Origin: an uncultured Pelagibacteraceae bacterium
GTDB taxonomy: Bacteria; Pseudomonadota; Alphaproteobacteria; Pelagibacterales; Pelagibacteraceae
Direction: 5' to 3'
DNA: 64,000 nt
NCBI GenBank assembly: GCA_902524545.1
Contig: CABZDW010000005.1
Span: 1 to 64,000, forward strand
Part shown: positions 27,317 through 45,212 of the stretch, piece by piece
Layout of the letters: every line of letters starts with the position of its first letter
Numbering within the stretch: the first letter of the stretch is position 1
Translations under genes and position numbers: made by a program
The notes under the pieces: model-generated
What the model was told of the DNA's origin: nothing
The model's input: the letters and a program-made list of their open reading frames with translations, nothing else
The model's database searches: none

Positions 27317-27760
27317 ATGTTTTTATCAACCTACGAAAACAAATTAGACAAAAAAGGAAGGGTGTCGGTGCCTGCGAGCTTTAGATCTTATTTATCTAAT
27401 TTAGGATACAACGGTGTTATTTGTTATCCCTCATTTAATAATCAGTCAATAGAGGTATGGCCTCAAGATAGAGTTGAAAAAATTTCAAATTCAATAGATA
27501 ACTTAAATCCATTTGAGGAAAAAAGAGATTTTTTTGCTACATCAATATTATCAGAAAGCATAAATTTACAATTTGATAGCGAAGGAAGGATTTCGCTTAC
27601 ACCAAAATTATTAAAACATGCAAAAATTAAAAATAGCATGGTGTTTGTTGGTCAAGGTAAAACTTTTCAAATATGGGAACCAACAATTTTTGAAAAATTT
27701 AAGGTCACTGCAAGAAAAAAAGCAAATTTAAATCGTGCTGGTCTTAAATGGGAGCATTAA
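27317..27760 (+). CDS. mraZ: Transcriptional regulator MraZ
   Basis: MFLSTYENKLDKKGRVSVPASFRSYL...LQFDSEGRISLTPKLLKHAKI. Confidence 0.95.
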   Translation: MFLSTYENKLDKKGRVSVPASFRSYLSNLGYNGVICYPSFNNQSIEVWPQDRVEKISNSIDNLNPFEEKRDFFATSILSESINLQFDSEGRISLTPKLLKHAKIKNSMVFVGQGKTFQIWEPTIFEKFKVTARKKANLNRAGLKWEH

Positions 27761-27770
27761 CTAAAAAATA

Positions 27771-29252
27771 ATGGGGGATAACAAAATGACAATTAATTTT
27801 AAAACGCCAGAGATAAAAGAATTACAACCTAGACTTTTAGTAATGGGAGTTGGTGGTGCAGGAGGAAATGCTATTAATGAGATGATTGAAAATGGAATGC
27901 AAGGAGTGGAATTTATTGCTGTTAACACTGATGCACAAGATCTAAAACATAGTAAAGCAAAATCAAAAATTCAAATTGGTTTAAATTTAACTAAGGGTCT
28001 AGGAGCAGGTGCAAAAATTGACATAGGACAAGCTGCAGCTGATGAATCTTTAAATGATATTGTTAATGTTTTACAAGGTGCAAATATGGTCTTTATAGCC
28101 GCTGGAATGGGTGGTGGAACAGGAACTGGTGCTGCACATGTTATTGCAAGAGCTGCAAAAGAATTAAATATTTTAACTGTTGGGGTAGTTACACTTCCAT
28201 TTTTATATGAGGGTCCTTCAAGAATGAGAAGAGCTCAAATTGGTCTTGAGGAATTAAGAAAACATGTAGATACTATAATAGTAATTCCCAATCAAAATTT
28301 GTTTAAGATAGCAAATGAACAAACTACATTTGAGGAGTCGTTCAATTTATCAAATAATGTTTTAATGCATGGTGTTCAAAGCGTTACAGATCTGATGGTG
28401 AGACCTGGAATAATCAATTTAGATTTTGCAGATGTCGAAACAGTTATGGCATCTATGGGTAAAGCTATGATGGGAACAGGAGAAGCTGATGGTGAAGGTA
28501 GATCTATGAAAGCAACGGAGATGGCAATTAGCAATCCTTTAATTGATGACTATACTCTTAAAGGTGCAAAAGGATTACTTGTCAACATCACAGGTGGCAA
28601 AGATCTTAAGTTATTTGAAGTTGATGAAGTGGTTAACAAAATAAGATCTGAAGTTGAGGCTGATGCAGAGGTAATTATAGGTGCAATAACTGACCCATCC
28701 CTTGAAGGTAAAATTAGAGTATCAATTGTTGCAACAGCTCTAGATGGACAACAACCTGAAACGAAATCAGTAATTAACATGGTACATAGAATTCAGAATA
28801 GAAATCCTGGATACTCTGATTTTTCAAATTTGGGATCTAATACCTCTTTTAATTTTTCAACCAGCACGCCAATCTCAAGTGGTGCTAATGCGCTAAAATT
28901 AGAGAATGAAGTATCAACTGAAAATGTAAGTGAAACAGTTACGAATAATAATATTAATCAAATAAATGATCAATATCATGAGGAATTACTAAAAAATCAA
29001 CAAGTTGAAAGCTTAGTTGAAAACACTAATGAGGATGAGGAAAGTTCTTTTACTCAAGAAGCTATTGGCGAGTCAATTAATGAAGATGAGATAAAAAATG
29101 ATCTAAAAGAGTTTGGAGTAGATAGTGATGCACCAGATTTATTTAGCTCTGAAAACGAGACCTCTTCAACAGAAAATCTTTTGTCCCAAGAAAATGAGGA
29201 TGAAGAGGACGATTTAGAGATACCAGCATTTTTAAGAAGACAAAAAAATTAA
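27771..29252 (+). CDS. ftsZ: Cell division protein FtsZ (start possibly at internal Met 27786)
   Basis: Tubulin signature AAGMGGGTGTGAAHVIARAAKE; GVGGAGGNAINEM; C-terminal peptide DLEIPAFLRRQ. Confidence 0.98.
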   Translation: MGDNKMTINFKTPEIKELQPRLLVMGVGGAGGNAINEMIENGMQGVEFIAVNTDAQDLKHSKAKSKIQIGLNLTKGLGAGAKIDIGQAAADESLNDIVNVLQGANMVFIAAGMGGGTGTGAAHVIARAAKELNILTVGVVTLPFLYEGPSRMRRAQIGLEELRKHVDTIIVIPNQNLFKIANEQTTFEESFNLSNNVLMHGVQSVTDLMVRPGIINLDFADVETVMASMGKAMMGTGEADGEGRSMKATEMAISNPLIDDYTLKGAKGLLVNITGGKDLKLFEVDEVVNKIRSEVEADAEVIIGAITDPSLEGKIRVSIVATALDGQQPETKSVINMVHRIQNRNPGYSDFSNLGSNTSFNFSTSTPISSGANALKLENEVSTENVSETVTNNNINQINDQYHEELLKNQQVESLVENTNEDEESSFTQEAIGESINEDEIKNDLKEFGVDSDAPDLFSSENETSSTENLLSQENEDEEDDLEIPAFLRRQKN

Positions 29253-32266: not shown

Positions 32267-35110
32267 ATGTTATTAGGCAATTATTTTACCAATATAAATA
32301 GTAGCAAAAAAAAAATTTTTTTCTCAGGGATTTCATTCAATTCAAAAGATATTAAAAAAGATAATATTTTTTTTGCTATAGAGGGCAACAATTTTAACGG
32401 AAATAAATTTATTTCTACTGCAATTAAAAAAGGCTCTAAAATTATTATTAGCGAGAAAAGAATTTCAAATTTTCAAAAAGATATTTTATTCATTTATACT
32501 AAAAATGTACGAAAACTTTTAGCAGAAATTGCTTTTAAAATTTATAAGAATAAACCAAATAATTTAATTGCTGTTACTGGAACAAATGGAAAATCATCTG
32601 TTTCAGATTTTTATTTTCAATTATTGAAACTTAATAAAATAAAAGTCGCCTCAATTGGAACATTGGGTGTAAAATCAAAAAATATTAGACAAAATTTACC
32701 AAATACTACAATAGACCCAATTCGAATAGGGCAAGTACTATCTAAATTAAAAGCTAAAAAAATTAATAATGTAATTATGGAAGCATCTAGTCATGGTCTA
32801 AGTCAACATAGGCTAGATGGTTTAAAGTTTTCATCAGGTATTTTCACAAATTTATCTCAAGATCATTTAGATTATCATAAAAATTTTAAAGAATACTTTA
32901 AAGCAAAACAGTACTTATTTGAAAATTTGATAAAAACAAAAGGAAATGTAATAGCAGATGAAACAATACCAGAATATAAAAGAATAAAAAAAATTGCAAT
33001 TTCCAGAAAGTTAAAATTGCAAGCTTTAAATAGTAGCAAAAATCAATTTCAAATCTTATTTCATAGGTTTAGAGGCGAGAAACAAATATTAAAGATAAAA
33101 TACAATAATCTATCGAGAGAGGTAAATTTAAATCTTATTGGAAAAATACAATTAAAAAATATTTTAATGGCAATTATTGCAGCAAAAAATAGTAATTTAA
33201 GTTTAATAAAGATTCTAAATGTATTATCAAAACTTAAACCAGTAGATGGAAGATTTGAAAAAATAGGTAAAATCAAAAATAAGTCTAAGGTAATACTTGA
33301 TTATGCACATACACCAGATGCTCTAAGAATATGCCTTTCAAATCTTAAAGAGCAATTTCCAAATAAAAAAATAGTTTTACTTTTTGGCTGTGGAGGAAAT
33401 AGAGATCAAAATAAAAGATTCAAAATGGGAAAAATTGCAAGTAATTATTCTAAAGAAATTTATTTAACTGACGATAATCCTAGATTTGAAGATCCAAGAA
33501 AAATTAGAGATGACATTAAAAAGGGCATTCAAAACACTTTAATAAAAGAAATTCCAAATAGAAAACAAGCTATATCAGAGGCTGTTAAAAACTTAAATAC
33601 AGGTGATATTTTGTTAGTTGCTGGAAAAGGTCATGAAAAGATACAAGATTTTGGTAAAAAGAAAATTTTCTTTTCGGATAAAAAAATCATTTTAGACTGT
33701 ATTAAACTTAAAAATATTAACTTATCAAAAAACTTAAAGATAAATATCATTAAGGAAGTATCGAAAATCAAAAATAAAATTCCTTTAGTAAAAGCAGATA
33801 AGGCAAGAATCAACTCTAAAGAGGTAAACAAGAATGATATTTTTTTTGCTATTAAAGGAAAAAAAAATGATGGAAATAAATTTATTGGAGAGGCATTTAA
33901 AAATAAAGCGTCATTAGCTGTATTAAACAAAATTCAAAATAAATTTGATAGTAAACGTCAGATAAAAGTAAGAAATACATTAAAATTTATGACTGAAATT
34001 TCAAAAATATTTAGGAAAAATATCGATACAAATATAATTGCAATTACAGGAAGTTGTGGAAAAACCACTCTTAAAGAATTATTGGGCCATGTGTTAAGAA
34101 AAATTTCTAGTGTTAGTATTTCTCCTAAATCATATAACAATAAATTTGGAGTACCTTTAAGTTTACTTAATTTAAAACATAGTGATGAATTTGGAATTTT
34201 AGAGGTTGGTATGGATAAAAAAGGTGAGATTGATAATTTGACAAATATTATAAAACCAAATGTTGGCTTGATCACTAATATTAACTATGCACATGCAAAA
34301 AATTTCAAAAATATCCAACAAATTGCCTTAGCTAAAGGAGAGATAATTAAAAATATATTACCTGATGGTTTTGTTGTCTTGAATGCAGATGATAGTTTTT
34401 TCAAATTACATAAAAAAATTGCCCTAAATTATAATATTAACGTGGTCTCTTTTGGGATTAAAAGTAAAAAAGCAAATATTAAATTGTTGGATATAAAGAA
34501 AATTAAAAAAGTATTTAAAATTAAAATTAAAATAAATGATAAGTTTAAATATTTTATAATATCTAATAATTTTCAAAATAATATTTATAATATTTTAGGC
34601 GCTTTAAGTGTAATAAGTATTTACAAAAATGTACCTAAATTAAATAAAAAAATTTTCTTAGATTTCAGAAGCCCAGCAGGAAGAGGAGATCGTTCTATAA
34701 TTAAGATTGGTAGCAAAAAAATTAACTTAATTGATGAAAGTTATAATTCTAACCCTCTATCTTTAAAATCAGCTTTAAAGAATTATGATAATATTGACAC
34801 AAAAAAATATCGTAAATATCTTTTGCTTGGAGATATGATGGAACTTGGGAAACATTCAAAAAAACTTCACCGGTCAATAGCTCCTTTAATTAATAAAACA
34901 AATATTGATAAAGTATTTGTTATGGGAAAAATGGTCAGAGAAATATTTAATAATATTAAAAAAGTTAAAAAAGGAAGAATTTTAGTAAATAAGTTTGGAA
35001 TATTTGAATTTATTAAGAAAGATTTAAATAATAATGATTATTTAATGATTAAAGCCTCAAATGCGACAGGTTTCAATAGTATAGTAAATAATCTAAAGAG
35101 GTTAAATTAA
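32267..35110 (+). CDS. murEF: Fused MurE-MurF: UDP-MurNAc-L-Ala-D-Glu:meso-DAP ligase plus UDP-MurNAc-tripeptide:D-Ala-D-Ala ligase
   Basis: 947 aa with two Mur ligase modules: VTGTNGKSSVSDFYFQLL and DDNPRFEDP (MurE), then ITGSCGKTTLKELLGHVL...KSYNNKFGVPLSLL (MurF). Confidence 0.95.
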   Translation: MLLGNYFTNINSSKKKIFFSGISFNSKDIKKDNIFFAIEGNNFNGNKFISTAIKKGSKIIISEKRISNFQKDILFIYTKNVRKLLAEIAFKIYKNKPNNLIAVTGTNGKSSVSDFYFQLLKLNKIKVASIGTLGVKSKNIRQNLPNTTIDPIRIGQVLSKLKAKKINNVIMEASSHGLSQHRLDGLKFSSGIFTNLSQDHLDYHKNFKEYFKAKQYLFENLIKTKGNVIADETIPEYKRIKKIAISRKLKLQALNSSKNQFQILFHRFRGEKQILKIKYNNLSREVNLNLIGKIQLKNILMAIIAAKNSNLSLIKILNVLSKLKPVDGRFEKIGKIKNKSKVILDYAHTPDALRICLSNLKEQFPNKKIVLLFGCGGNRDQNKRFKMGKIASNYSKEIYLTDDNPRFEDPRKIRDDIKKGIQNTLIKEIPNRKQAISEAVKNLNTGDILLVAGKGHEKIQDFGKKKIFFSDKKIILDCIKLKNINLSKNLKINIIKEVSKIKNKIPLVKADKARINSKEVNKNDIFFAIKGKKNDGNKFIGEAFKNKASLAVLNKIQNKFDSKRQIKVRNTLKFMTEISKIFRKNIDTNIIAITGSCGKTTLKELLGHVLRKISSVSISPKSYNNKFGVPLSLLNLKHSDEFGILEVGMDKKGEIDNLTNIIKPNVGLITNINYAHAKNFKNIQQIALAKGEIIKNILPDGFVVLNADDSFFKLHKKIALNYNINVVSFGIKSKKANIKLLDIKKIKKVFKIKIKINDKFKYFIISNNFQNNIYNILGALSVISIYKNVPKLNKKIFLDFRSPAGRGDRSIIKIGSKKINLIDESYNSNPLSLKSALKNYDNIDTKKYRKYLLLGDMMELGKHSKKLHRSIAPLINKTNIDKVFVMGKMVREIFNNIKKVKKGRILVNKFGIFEFIKKDLNNNDYLMIKASNATGFNSIVNNLKRLN

Positions 35111-41967: not shown

Positions 41968-42882
41968 TTGAAAAAGAAAATTTTGATAATTTCAGGCGGT
42001 ATTTCTAAGGAAAGAATTATCAGCTTAGAGACAGGGAGGCAGGTTGCAAAAGAATTAAAAAGAAATAATTACATAGTAAAAATATGCGAGCCAGACAAAG
42101 ATTTAATATCTGTAACAAAAAGTTTTAAACCCCATTTAATTTTTAATGCTCTACACGGGCAGTTTGGTGAAGATGGATACATACAAACAATCCTTGAAAC
42201 AATAGGTATACCTTATACCCATTCAGGTGTAATTGCCTCTGCTAAAGCAATGGATAAAGAAATTTCTAAAAAAATTTTTATTAAAAATAAAATTTTAACA
42301 CCTAAATATTTCATTTTTACTTTCAATAAAACTAATAAAGAACTTATAAGTTTAGTAAAAAAAAAGTTAAACTTTCCTGTTGTGATTAAACCAATAAATG
42401 AAGGTTCTAGTGTAAATGTTTATATTTGTACGAAGAATAATTTATCGAGAAACATAAAATTGTTAAAAGATTATAAAAAAGTATTGATAGAACAATTTAT
42501 TCCTGGGAGAGAGATTCAGTCTGCGATAATTGGAAAGAAGAAGCTTGGGGCAATTGAGCTTAAACCAAAGAGGAAATTTTATGATTATCAGGCAAAATAT
42601 AATTCTAATGCCAAAACAGAACATATAATTCCCGTAGACATAACAAAAAAAAAATTCAAAATTCTTATGGATACAACTTTAAAAGCACATAATTTGATGG
42701 GGTGTAGAGGAGTTACTAGATCAGATTTCAAATATTTTAGAGGAAAATTTTACCTTTTAGAAATTAATACACAGCCAGGAATGACAAAACTATCTTTAGT
42801 TCCTGAGATATCAGCCTATATTGGAATTAATTTCATAAATCTAATAAAATTAATTTTAAAAGATGCATCTATTAATAAGTAA
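41968..42882 (+). CDS. ddl: D-alanine--D-alanine ligase (TTG start)
   Basis: ISGGISKERIISLETGRQV; LHGQFGEDGYIQTILE; ATP-grasp; LLEINTQPGMTKLSLVPE. Confidence 0.95.
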   Translation: MKKKILIISGGISKERIISLETGRQVAKELKRNNYIVKICEPDKDLISVTKSFKPHLIFNALHGQFGEDGYIQTILETIGIPYTHSGVIASAKAMDKEISKKIFIKNKILTPKYFIFTFNKTNKELISLVKKKLNFPVVIKPINEGSSVNVYICTKNNLSRNIKLLKDYKKVLIEQFIPGREIQSAIIGKKKLGAIELKPKRKFYDYQAKYNSNAKTEHIIPVDITKKKFKILMDTTLKAHNLMGCRGVTRSDFKYFRGKFYLLEINTQPGMTKLSLVPEISAYIGINFINLIKLILKDASINK

Positions 42883-43537
42883 AAAAATTACGATTTACTT
42901 ATTACTTTTTTGTTTTCTTGTATCAATAAATAATATCTCATTAATGAACATCAGTTTTCCAAAAATTAATCAGATAGAGATTAGCGGTTTAAATCTTGAT
43001 GAAAGAAAGAAAATTGAAAGAATTATTTATGACTCTGATTTTAAAAGTATATTTCATTTAGATAAGCAATATTTAAAAAGAAAAATTAGTTCCATTAATA
43101 TTATTGAACAATTTGAAATATTTAAAAATTATCCATCAACTTTAAAAATATTTATAAAGGAAACAAAAATACTCGCACAAATAAAAAGAAATGGTTTTGA
43201 TTATTTAATTGGATCAAATGGAAAACTTATTCGAAATAATAATTTATCAGCTGACTTACCATTTATATTTGGCGATTTAAATCTTAATGAATTTTTAAAT
43301 TTTAAAAATGAAATTGATAAATCAAAGTTTGATTTTAAAAATATAACAAAATTATATTATTTCAAATCAAAGAGATGGGATATTGAAACATCTAAAGGTT
43401 ATTTGATAAAATTATCGAAAGATAACGTCGAAAAGAATCTAAATTTGTTTGTTCGTTTGTCTGATGAGAATAAATTTGAGAATAAATTAATAATTGATTT
43501 TCGTCAAAAAGATCAAATAATATTGAATGCAAAATAA
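42863..43537 (+). CDS. ftsQ: FtsQ-like divisome protein (TM plus POTRA)
   Basis: N-terminal TM, INQIEISGLNLDERKKIERII...NIIEQFEIFKNYPSTLKIFIKETKILAQIKRNG; position ddl-ftsQ-ftsA. Confidence 0.8.
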   Translation: MHLLISKKITIYLLLFCFLVSINNISLMNISFPKINQIEISGLNLDERKKIERIIYDSDFKSIFHLDKQYLKRKISSINIIEQFEIFKNYPSTLKIFIKETKILAQIKRNGFDYLIGSNGKLIRNNNLSADLPFIFGDLNLNEFLNFKNEIDKSKFDFKNITKLYYFKSKRWDIETSKGYLIKLSKDNVEKNLNLFVRLSDENKFENKLIIDFRQKDQIILNAK

Positions 43538-44228
43538 ATTAGAAAATAAAATATTTCTTCTTTTAGGTATTAATAAATTTACAATAGTAGCATTAAGTTC
43601 CACTAACGAGTTAGTTTATAAAGAAGAAATCTTAACAAATGATAAAAGTAATCAAATTGATCTAAATTTTTTAGATAATTTTTTGAATGAAAATATTTTT
43701 AAGATAGAAAAAAAACTTGATGAATTTATCAAAAGTATTTTTTTAATTATTGATAATCAGAATATTTTTTCAATTCATTTATCAATTAAAAATAAATTTG
43801 ATAATATAAATATAAATTCTGATACGATGCATAAATTACTGTTGGAAGCAAAAAGTTGTTGTAACAAAACACTAGAAGATCTTGATATTCTTCACATGAA
43901 GATTGATCAGTTTTATATTGATGGAGCTTATTTTAAAACTTTACCAGAAAAAAAAAATTGTAATAATCTTTCTATCGATGTTTGTTATATATGTTTACCT
44001 AAAAGTATCTCAAAAACTATTGAAGATGTTCTTAGAAAATACCAAATATCATTAGATAGAACATTGAGTTTTGATTATCTAAATAGTTTTTTAGATAATA
44101 AAAATGAAAATTTATATGCAACTGCACAACAAATCTTAAGTGGTTTTAATGAGAATGAGGTGTTTATCGCTGATAAAAGCTCTAAAAAATTGGGTTTTTT
44201 TGAGAAATTCTTTAATTTTTTCAATTAG
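43527..44228 (+). CDS. Short FtsA-like protein (1A start plus SHS2/1C region, no 2A/2B ATPase half, amphipathic C-terminal tail)
   Basis: 233 aa at the ftsA position; DLDILHMKIDQFYIDGAYF matches the FtsA ILH..P..Y.IDG pattern; C-terminus KKLGFFEKFFNFFN. Confidence 0.6.
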   Translation: MQNKLENKIFLLLGINKFTIVALSSTNELVYKEEILTNDKSNQIDLNFLDNFLNENIFKIEKKLDEFIKSIFLIIDNQNIFSIHLSIKNKFDNININSDTMHKLLLEAKSCCNKTLEDLDILHMKIDQFYIDGAYFKTLPEKKNCNNLSIDVCYICLPKSISKTIEDVLRKYQISLDRTLSFDYLNSFLDNKNENLYATAQQILSGFNENEVFIADKSSKKLGFFEKFFNFFN

Positions 44229-44285: not shown

Positions 44286-45212
44286 TTGTTCGTGTCTTTA
44301 TTAAATCAAAAAACTATTAAAAAACCTGTAACTTTCAGTGGTATAGGCCTTCATTCAGGAAAACCCTCTAAGATTTGTGTTAAACCTGCTAATCCAGACA
44401 CTGGGATTGTATTTAAAAGAATAGATCAAAAAGACAACAACCTAATCTATCCAAATTTTATGAATGTGAGTAATACAGCTTTAAATACTACTATAAGTAA
44501 TAGCAATGGAGTGAAAGTTTCAACAATTGAACATTTAATGGGAGCTCTATTTGGAATCGGAATTGATAATGCATTGATTGAAATTGATAATGAGGAAGTA
44601 CCAATTTTAGATGGGTCAGCGAAAGTTTTTATTGATGAAATATTAACAGCCGGTCTAGAACTAAGTGATAAACCTATAAAGATTATTAAGATTAACAAAA
44701 AAGTTGAGTTTAAAAAAGGTGATAAGTTTATTTCAATTGAGCCTTCTAAATTAAGCCTAGATATAGATTTTGAGTTAAAATATAAAAATAAAATCATTGG
44801 AAATCAAAGAAATAAAAAAAATGTTTATGAAGATGATCTTACAGAAATTTTTGATTCTAGAACTTTCTGTCTTTATGAAGATATAGAAATGATAAAGAAA
44901 AATGGCCTTGCAAAAGGTGGAAGCCTAGATAATGCTGTTGTGGTAAAAGGTGAAGAAGTTTTAAATGCAGAAGGTTTAAGGAACTCAAAAGAGTTTGTTA
45001 ATCATAAAATACTTGATTGTATAGGTGATCTTTATACATGCGGATACAGAATGATAGCTAGTGTTAATTGCTCTCAAGGAGGACATTATATAACTAATAG
45101 CTTGTTGAGAGAAGTATTTAATAATAAAGATAATTTTTCTATTATAGAAATTCAGGAAAGAACATTACCCCACACATTAATTAATAGAAATTTGCTAAGA
45201 TCAATAGCATAG
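44286..45212 (+). CDS. lpxC: UDP-3-O-acyl-N-acetylglucosamine deacetylase
   Basis: QKTIKKPVTFSGIGLHSGKPS; STIEHLMGALFGIGIDNALIEID; FVNHKILDCIGDLY. Confidence 0.97.
   Translation: MFVSLLNQKTIKKPVTFSGIGLHSGKPSKICVKPANPDTGIVFKRIDQKDNNLIYPNFMNVSNTALNTTISNSNGVKVSTIEHLMGALFGIGIDNALIEIDNEEVPILDGSAKVFIDEILTAGLELSDKPIKIIKINKKVEFKKGDKFISIEPSKLSLDIDFELKYKNKIIGNQRNKKNVYEDDLTEIFDSRTFCLYEDIEMIKKNGLAKGGSLDNAVVVKGEEVLNAEGLRNSKEFVNHKILDCIGDLYTCGYRMIASVNCSQGGHYITNSLLREVFNNKDNFSIIEIQERTLPHTLINRNLLRSIA

Follow-up and report, generated by a model that had tools for sequence, protein, structure and literature searches.

FtsA, the actin-like protein regarded as the main membrane anchor of FtsZ in most bacteria, has a function that is tied to ATP, polymerisation and a contact between its subdomain 2B and FtsZ. 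It comprises domain I (subdomains 1A and 1C), domain II (2A and 2B), which is one continuous insertion in the actin fold, and a C-terminal amphipathic membrane helix. In solved FtsA, the cytoplasmic tail of FtsN binds the IA-IC cleft, lateral double-filament contacts use IC and longitudinal filament contacts use IIA-IIB (PMC7613929). The C-terminal peptide of FtsZ binds 2B (structure 4A2A).

Many SAR11 (Pelagibacter) bacteria, among the most abundant cells in the ocean, carry an FtsA from which the half that binds ATP and FtsZ has been removed at least once. We analysed one such locus in a 64,000-nucleotide stretch (hereafter the window) of an uncultured Pelagibacteraceae bacterium (assembly GCA_902524545.1, contig CABZDW010000005.1, positions 1 to 64,000). 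A preliminary description made from the sequence alone had reported a 233-aa FtsA-like protein without the 2A/2B half, and this observation is confirmed, with one detail corrected below. The open-access literature searched, which leaves out most subscription journals, contained no paper on SAR11 FtsA and no earlier report of such a form. The features of the locus are as follows:

27771..29252 (+), ftsZ, placed after mraZ and not after ftsA
29211..29249 (+), FtsZ C-terminal peptide DLEIPAFLRRQKN
42863..43537 (+), ftsQ, overlapping ftsA by 11 bp
43527..44228 (+), half-size FtsA (domain I and membrane helix), 233 aa, ATG start
43527..43658 (+), 1A N-terminal strands (residues 1-44; predicted strands 8-13, 17-23 and 29-36), phosphate-1 motif lost
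43659..43751 (+), 1A helix and strand (residues 45-75)
43752..44000 (+), subdomain 1C (SHS2), residues about 76-158
44001..44084 (+), 1A segment before domain II (residues 159-186), ending in the helix aligned with CSSYAKS of full-length forms
44085..44111 (+), junction (residues 187-195) where about 150-170 aa of 2A+2B are missing
44112..44162 (+), final 1A helix (residues 196-212, ATAQQILSGFNENEV), aligned with CESALKLGEGLNKQEV of full-length forms
44190..44225 (+), amphipathic membrane-targeting helix (residues 222-233, GFFEKFFNFFN)
44286..45212 (+), lpxC, its first possible start 57 bp after the stop of ftsA

The gene thus has the position of ftsA in the dcw cluster, after an ftsQ verified by its POTRA_1 and FtsQ_DivIB_C domains. 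ftsZ lies 14 kb upstream, right after mraZ (27317..27760) at the start of the cluster, and the same arrangement is seen in the related loci that reach that far. In the same window murE and murF form one fused ORF (32267-35110, 947 aa), whereas in the more distant genera (loci L229-L232, L235 and L236) the MurE/F match is in separate ORFs of about 460-477 aa. In one genome, G009 (locus L202), the upstream dcw genes from murC back to mraZ are missing from the 16 kb before ftsA, suggesting a rearranged cluster. The nearest named loci are single-cell genomes of Pelagibacteraceae, 74-90% identical in the half-size protein.

Homology to FtsA was examined by sequence profiles and by structure. The window protein alone has no Pfam hit even at E<=10, but 19 of 42 relatives match SHS2_FTSA (best E 1.7e-6). 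The NCBIfam ftsA model TIGR01174 matches weakly over residues 45-179, at 14.9 bits and so below its cut-off of 175.85 bits. A profile of the short forms reaches E. coli FtsA in the PDB at E=0.003, covering the part just before domain II, and profile-profile comparison with full-length Pelagibacter FtsA gives 99.8% probability (E=4e-28). The preliminary description had named a predicted structure without 1A/1C similarity as grounds for rejecting its reading; the AlphaFold2 model, built with 42 relatives, is confident (pLDDT 84.5, pTM 0.80), and its first 19 Foldseek matches in the PDB are all FtsA (best E 1.2e-11, TM 0.67 of the query, about 188 columns), followed by PilM. A model of a second short lineage (genome G016) gives pLDDT 86.4 and the same answer, with GspL/EpsL further down the list.

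Other species of the genus have a full-length FtsA of 368-401 aa at the same locus. Aligned with these and with E. coli FtsA, the short form follows the full form through 1A, 1C and the CSSYAKS helix, then jumps about 150-170 residues and resumes at the final 1A helix (ATAQQILSGFNENEVFIADKSSKKLGFFEKFF in the window; CESALKLGEGLNKQEVVVVPKKQIKEGFFEKLF at locus L039; ICESGLKLIKGINKQEVAIVPRKLEKKGFFERLF in the short form of genome G100). An automatic alignment had placed the post-junction segment on the start of 2A, but the gapless match of GxNxxEV...K....GFFEK to the C-terminal helix of full-length forms shows that it is the final 1A helix. Domain I plus tail amounts to 216-231 aa in full-length forms, against 230-236 aa for most short forms. 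Domain II has therefore been taken out in frame and domain I closed by about 10 linker residues, a precise excision rather than a truncation. The phosphate-2 and adenosine motifs are lost with it, and the FtsA-like start claimed in the preliminary description must be qualified, since the phosphate-1 motif is degenerate (DxGSSK in the full-length relatives, LLLGINK here). The genus's full-length forms keep all three nucleotide motifs. Sister genera (loci L233 of genome G487, L234 of genome G470, and L241-L243) keep full-length FtsA (396-398 aa) with degenerate nucleotide motifs, for example FLEINN for the phosphate-1 loop, suggesting loss of ATP use without loss of domain II.

The short form is not a pseudogene, nor a frameshift artefact. 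Intact ORFs of 230-244 aa are carried by 79 named loci, and the short form is intact in most genomes of the genus. Among near-complete genomes of the genus, 30 besides the window have the short form, 13 have the full form and 2 are cut by contig or frame ends. One of the 30, the complete genome G012, has the gene split by a frameshift in a homopolymer run (locus L012, 1404-2103); a sequencing error was not distinguished from a real frameshift here. Some genomes gave no ftsA match, but the four that were opened proved to be contig breaks next to lpxC, and an apparent match to domain II only, in genome G422, was a contig end. Within the window's clade dN/dS is 0.19 for ftsA, 0.20 for ftsQ and 0.06-0.13 for the neighbouring enzymes and ftsW, indicating purifying selection; dN/dS of the domains of full-length forms was saturated. 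The membrane helix is the best conserved part of the protein (mean top-residue frequency 0.81) and its amphipathic character is supported by sequence and hydrophobic moment, although membrane binding itself was not assayed.

No substitute for the missing half was found. A second, full-length FtsA elsewhere in the genome was the other finding that the preliminary description had said would overturn its reading, but PF14450 in the window's own genome finds only MreB, and near-complete short-form genomes have no second FtsA. A dedicated domain-II profile gave no hit at E<=1 in the own genome and nine near-complete short-form genomes, and only a weak hit broken by stops in a tenth, while scoring E=1e-55 and 5e-63 in two full-length controls. 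The FtsZ C-terminal peptide is identical in short-form and full-form genomes apart from single-residue variants, and FtsZ lengths and C-termini do not differ between the two groups. SepF (PF04472) was found in 0 of 14 genomes and ZapA is present. No FtsE exceeded the curated cut-off; this search used only that strict cut-off and is unspecific, ABC ATPases being hard to tell apart. FtsN was not recognised in these genomes: the only SPOR hit of the own genome is an RlpA-like lipoprotein ORF between lytic-transglycosylase-like and carboxypeptidase-like genes (locus L250, 1438-2190).

Whether related SAR11 genomes uniformly carry the short form had been posed in advance as a check, and they do not. 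The sister family and the other genera of the family have FtsA of about 394-420 aa, and several clades of the same genus are also full-length. In a tree of 8 neighbouring proteins from 128 loci, the genus splits into a short clade (5 genomes), a full clade (22), a clade with short forms (2: G100 and AG-414-L04) as sister of full forms (5, including genome G419), and a short clade (86, with the window). Forcing all short-form genomes into one clade is rejected (AU test, p=4.6e-7), as are the groupings of short A+B (p=7e-85) and B+G100 (p=5.8e-7), A and B being short-form groups. Since an excised domain is not easily regained, this means three losses, or one loss followed by transfer of the short allele; FtsA's own tree is too weak to decide between one and several origins (p=0.23). 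In a sample of 144 members of the class Alphaproteobacteria, 133 have an SHS2_FTSA match, in open frames of 398 aa or more except for one of 340 aa that begins at a contig end, so that the half form appears confined to this genus as far as sampled.

The interpretation in the preliminary description, a reduced membrane-tethering or FtsN/FtsQ-side adaptor, is supported in part. FtsA homology, loss of the 2A/2B half, the amphipathic tail and the intact FtsZ peptide all held, as did its judgement that a frameshift does not hide the rest, but a role on the FtsN/FtsQ side is inference only, FtsQ being present and FtsN unrecognised. What sequence and prediction establish is the anatomy, the purifying selection, the lack of domain II elsewhere in the genomes tested and the unchanged FtsZ peptide; everything on mechanism is inferred from these, and no interaction was tested. 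Without 2A the protein could not build the canonical ATP site, without the 2A-2B longitudinal contact it could not form FtsA protofilaments (filament formation was not assayed), and without 2B it lacks the known pocket for the FtsZ peptide, while the partner cleft, the lateral face and the membrane anchor are kept. In the reading that we favour, with moderate confidence, it would therefore work as a monomeric or 1C-paired, nucleotide-independent membrane adaptor that holds divisome membrane proteins at the septum through the 1A-1C cleft, while another membrane protein, not yet identified, or a newly evolved surface of this protein, holds the FtsZ peptide. Neither the partner of the cleft nor the tether was identified, and the fast divergence between clades (about 25-40% identity) could also mean relaxed function. 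A stronger version is put forward only tentatively: that within one free-living genus the anchor lost its ATP- and FtsZ-binding half three separate times at the same domain boundary, leaving a nucleotide-free half-actin adaptor, with FtsZ held by an undiscovered tether that already existed in the genus ancestor.

Of the alternatives, the one that survives best, though we consider it unlikely, is that the short protein is still the Z-ring tether, the FtsZ peptide binding a new surface on 1A, 1C or the tail. The unchanged peptide, the lack of SepF and of an above-cut-off FtsE, and the conservation of the membrane helix are in its favour; against it, the known site in 2B is absent, the best conserved non-tail part is the 1A helix, no new FtsZ-binding motif was recognised, and conservation of the peptide is not specific because it also binds other partners. 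Binding of the peptide was not measured. It is very unlikely that the gene is a decaying relic, left after FtsZ tethering became redundant. Fast divergence, the G012 frameshift and the degenerate nucleotide motifs of some full-length relatives outside the genus would fit such decay, but ORFs of nearly constant length, a dN/dS like that of ftsQ and a confidently predicted fold disfavour it. A split FtsA with domain II acting in trans has no evidence for it and is all but excluded by the domain-II search of the genomes tested and the PF14450 search of the own genome. An assembly or annotation artefact, although many of the genomes are single-cell or metagenome assemblies, is refuted by occurrence in hundreds of independent assemblies, including several single-contig genomes at 99-100% completeness.

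If the favoured reading is right, a selected half-FtsA lacking ATP use, polymerisation and the 2B-FtsZ contact would separate the membrane-adaptor role of FtsA from its FtsZ-tether role and imply an unknown way of attaching the ring in one of the most abundant bacterial groups in the ocean. Among known systems, SepF is likewise a nucleotide-independent membrane anchor, serving FtsZ in other phyla, but has an unrelated fold. The cytoplasmic domain of GspL/EpsL, and PilM, are actin-fold membrane adaptors that hold partner peptides; they belong to secretion or pilus machines, are weaker fold matches and attach to the membrane differently. Canonical FtsA (T. maritima 1E4F/4A2A, E. coli 7Q6D, V. 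maritimus 7Q6I) gives the best fold matches, over domain I, but also has domain II, the ATP site, the FtsZ-peptide pocket and the IIA-IIB filament contact; the short form is FtsA by descent and position, yet without domain II and the nucleotide motifs we class it as an FtsA-derived domain-I protein. Closest is the full-length FtsA of the same genus, for example that of G419 (369 aa; contig of 1,308,759 bp), which shares the locus, 1A/1C, the final 1A helix and the amphipathic tail but keeps 2A/2B and the three nucleotide motifs, so that related species of one genus, differing in exactly this domain, provide natural full and half comparators for the question of which parts of FtsA are needed for division.
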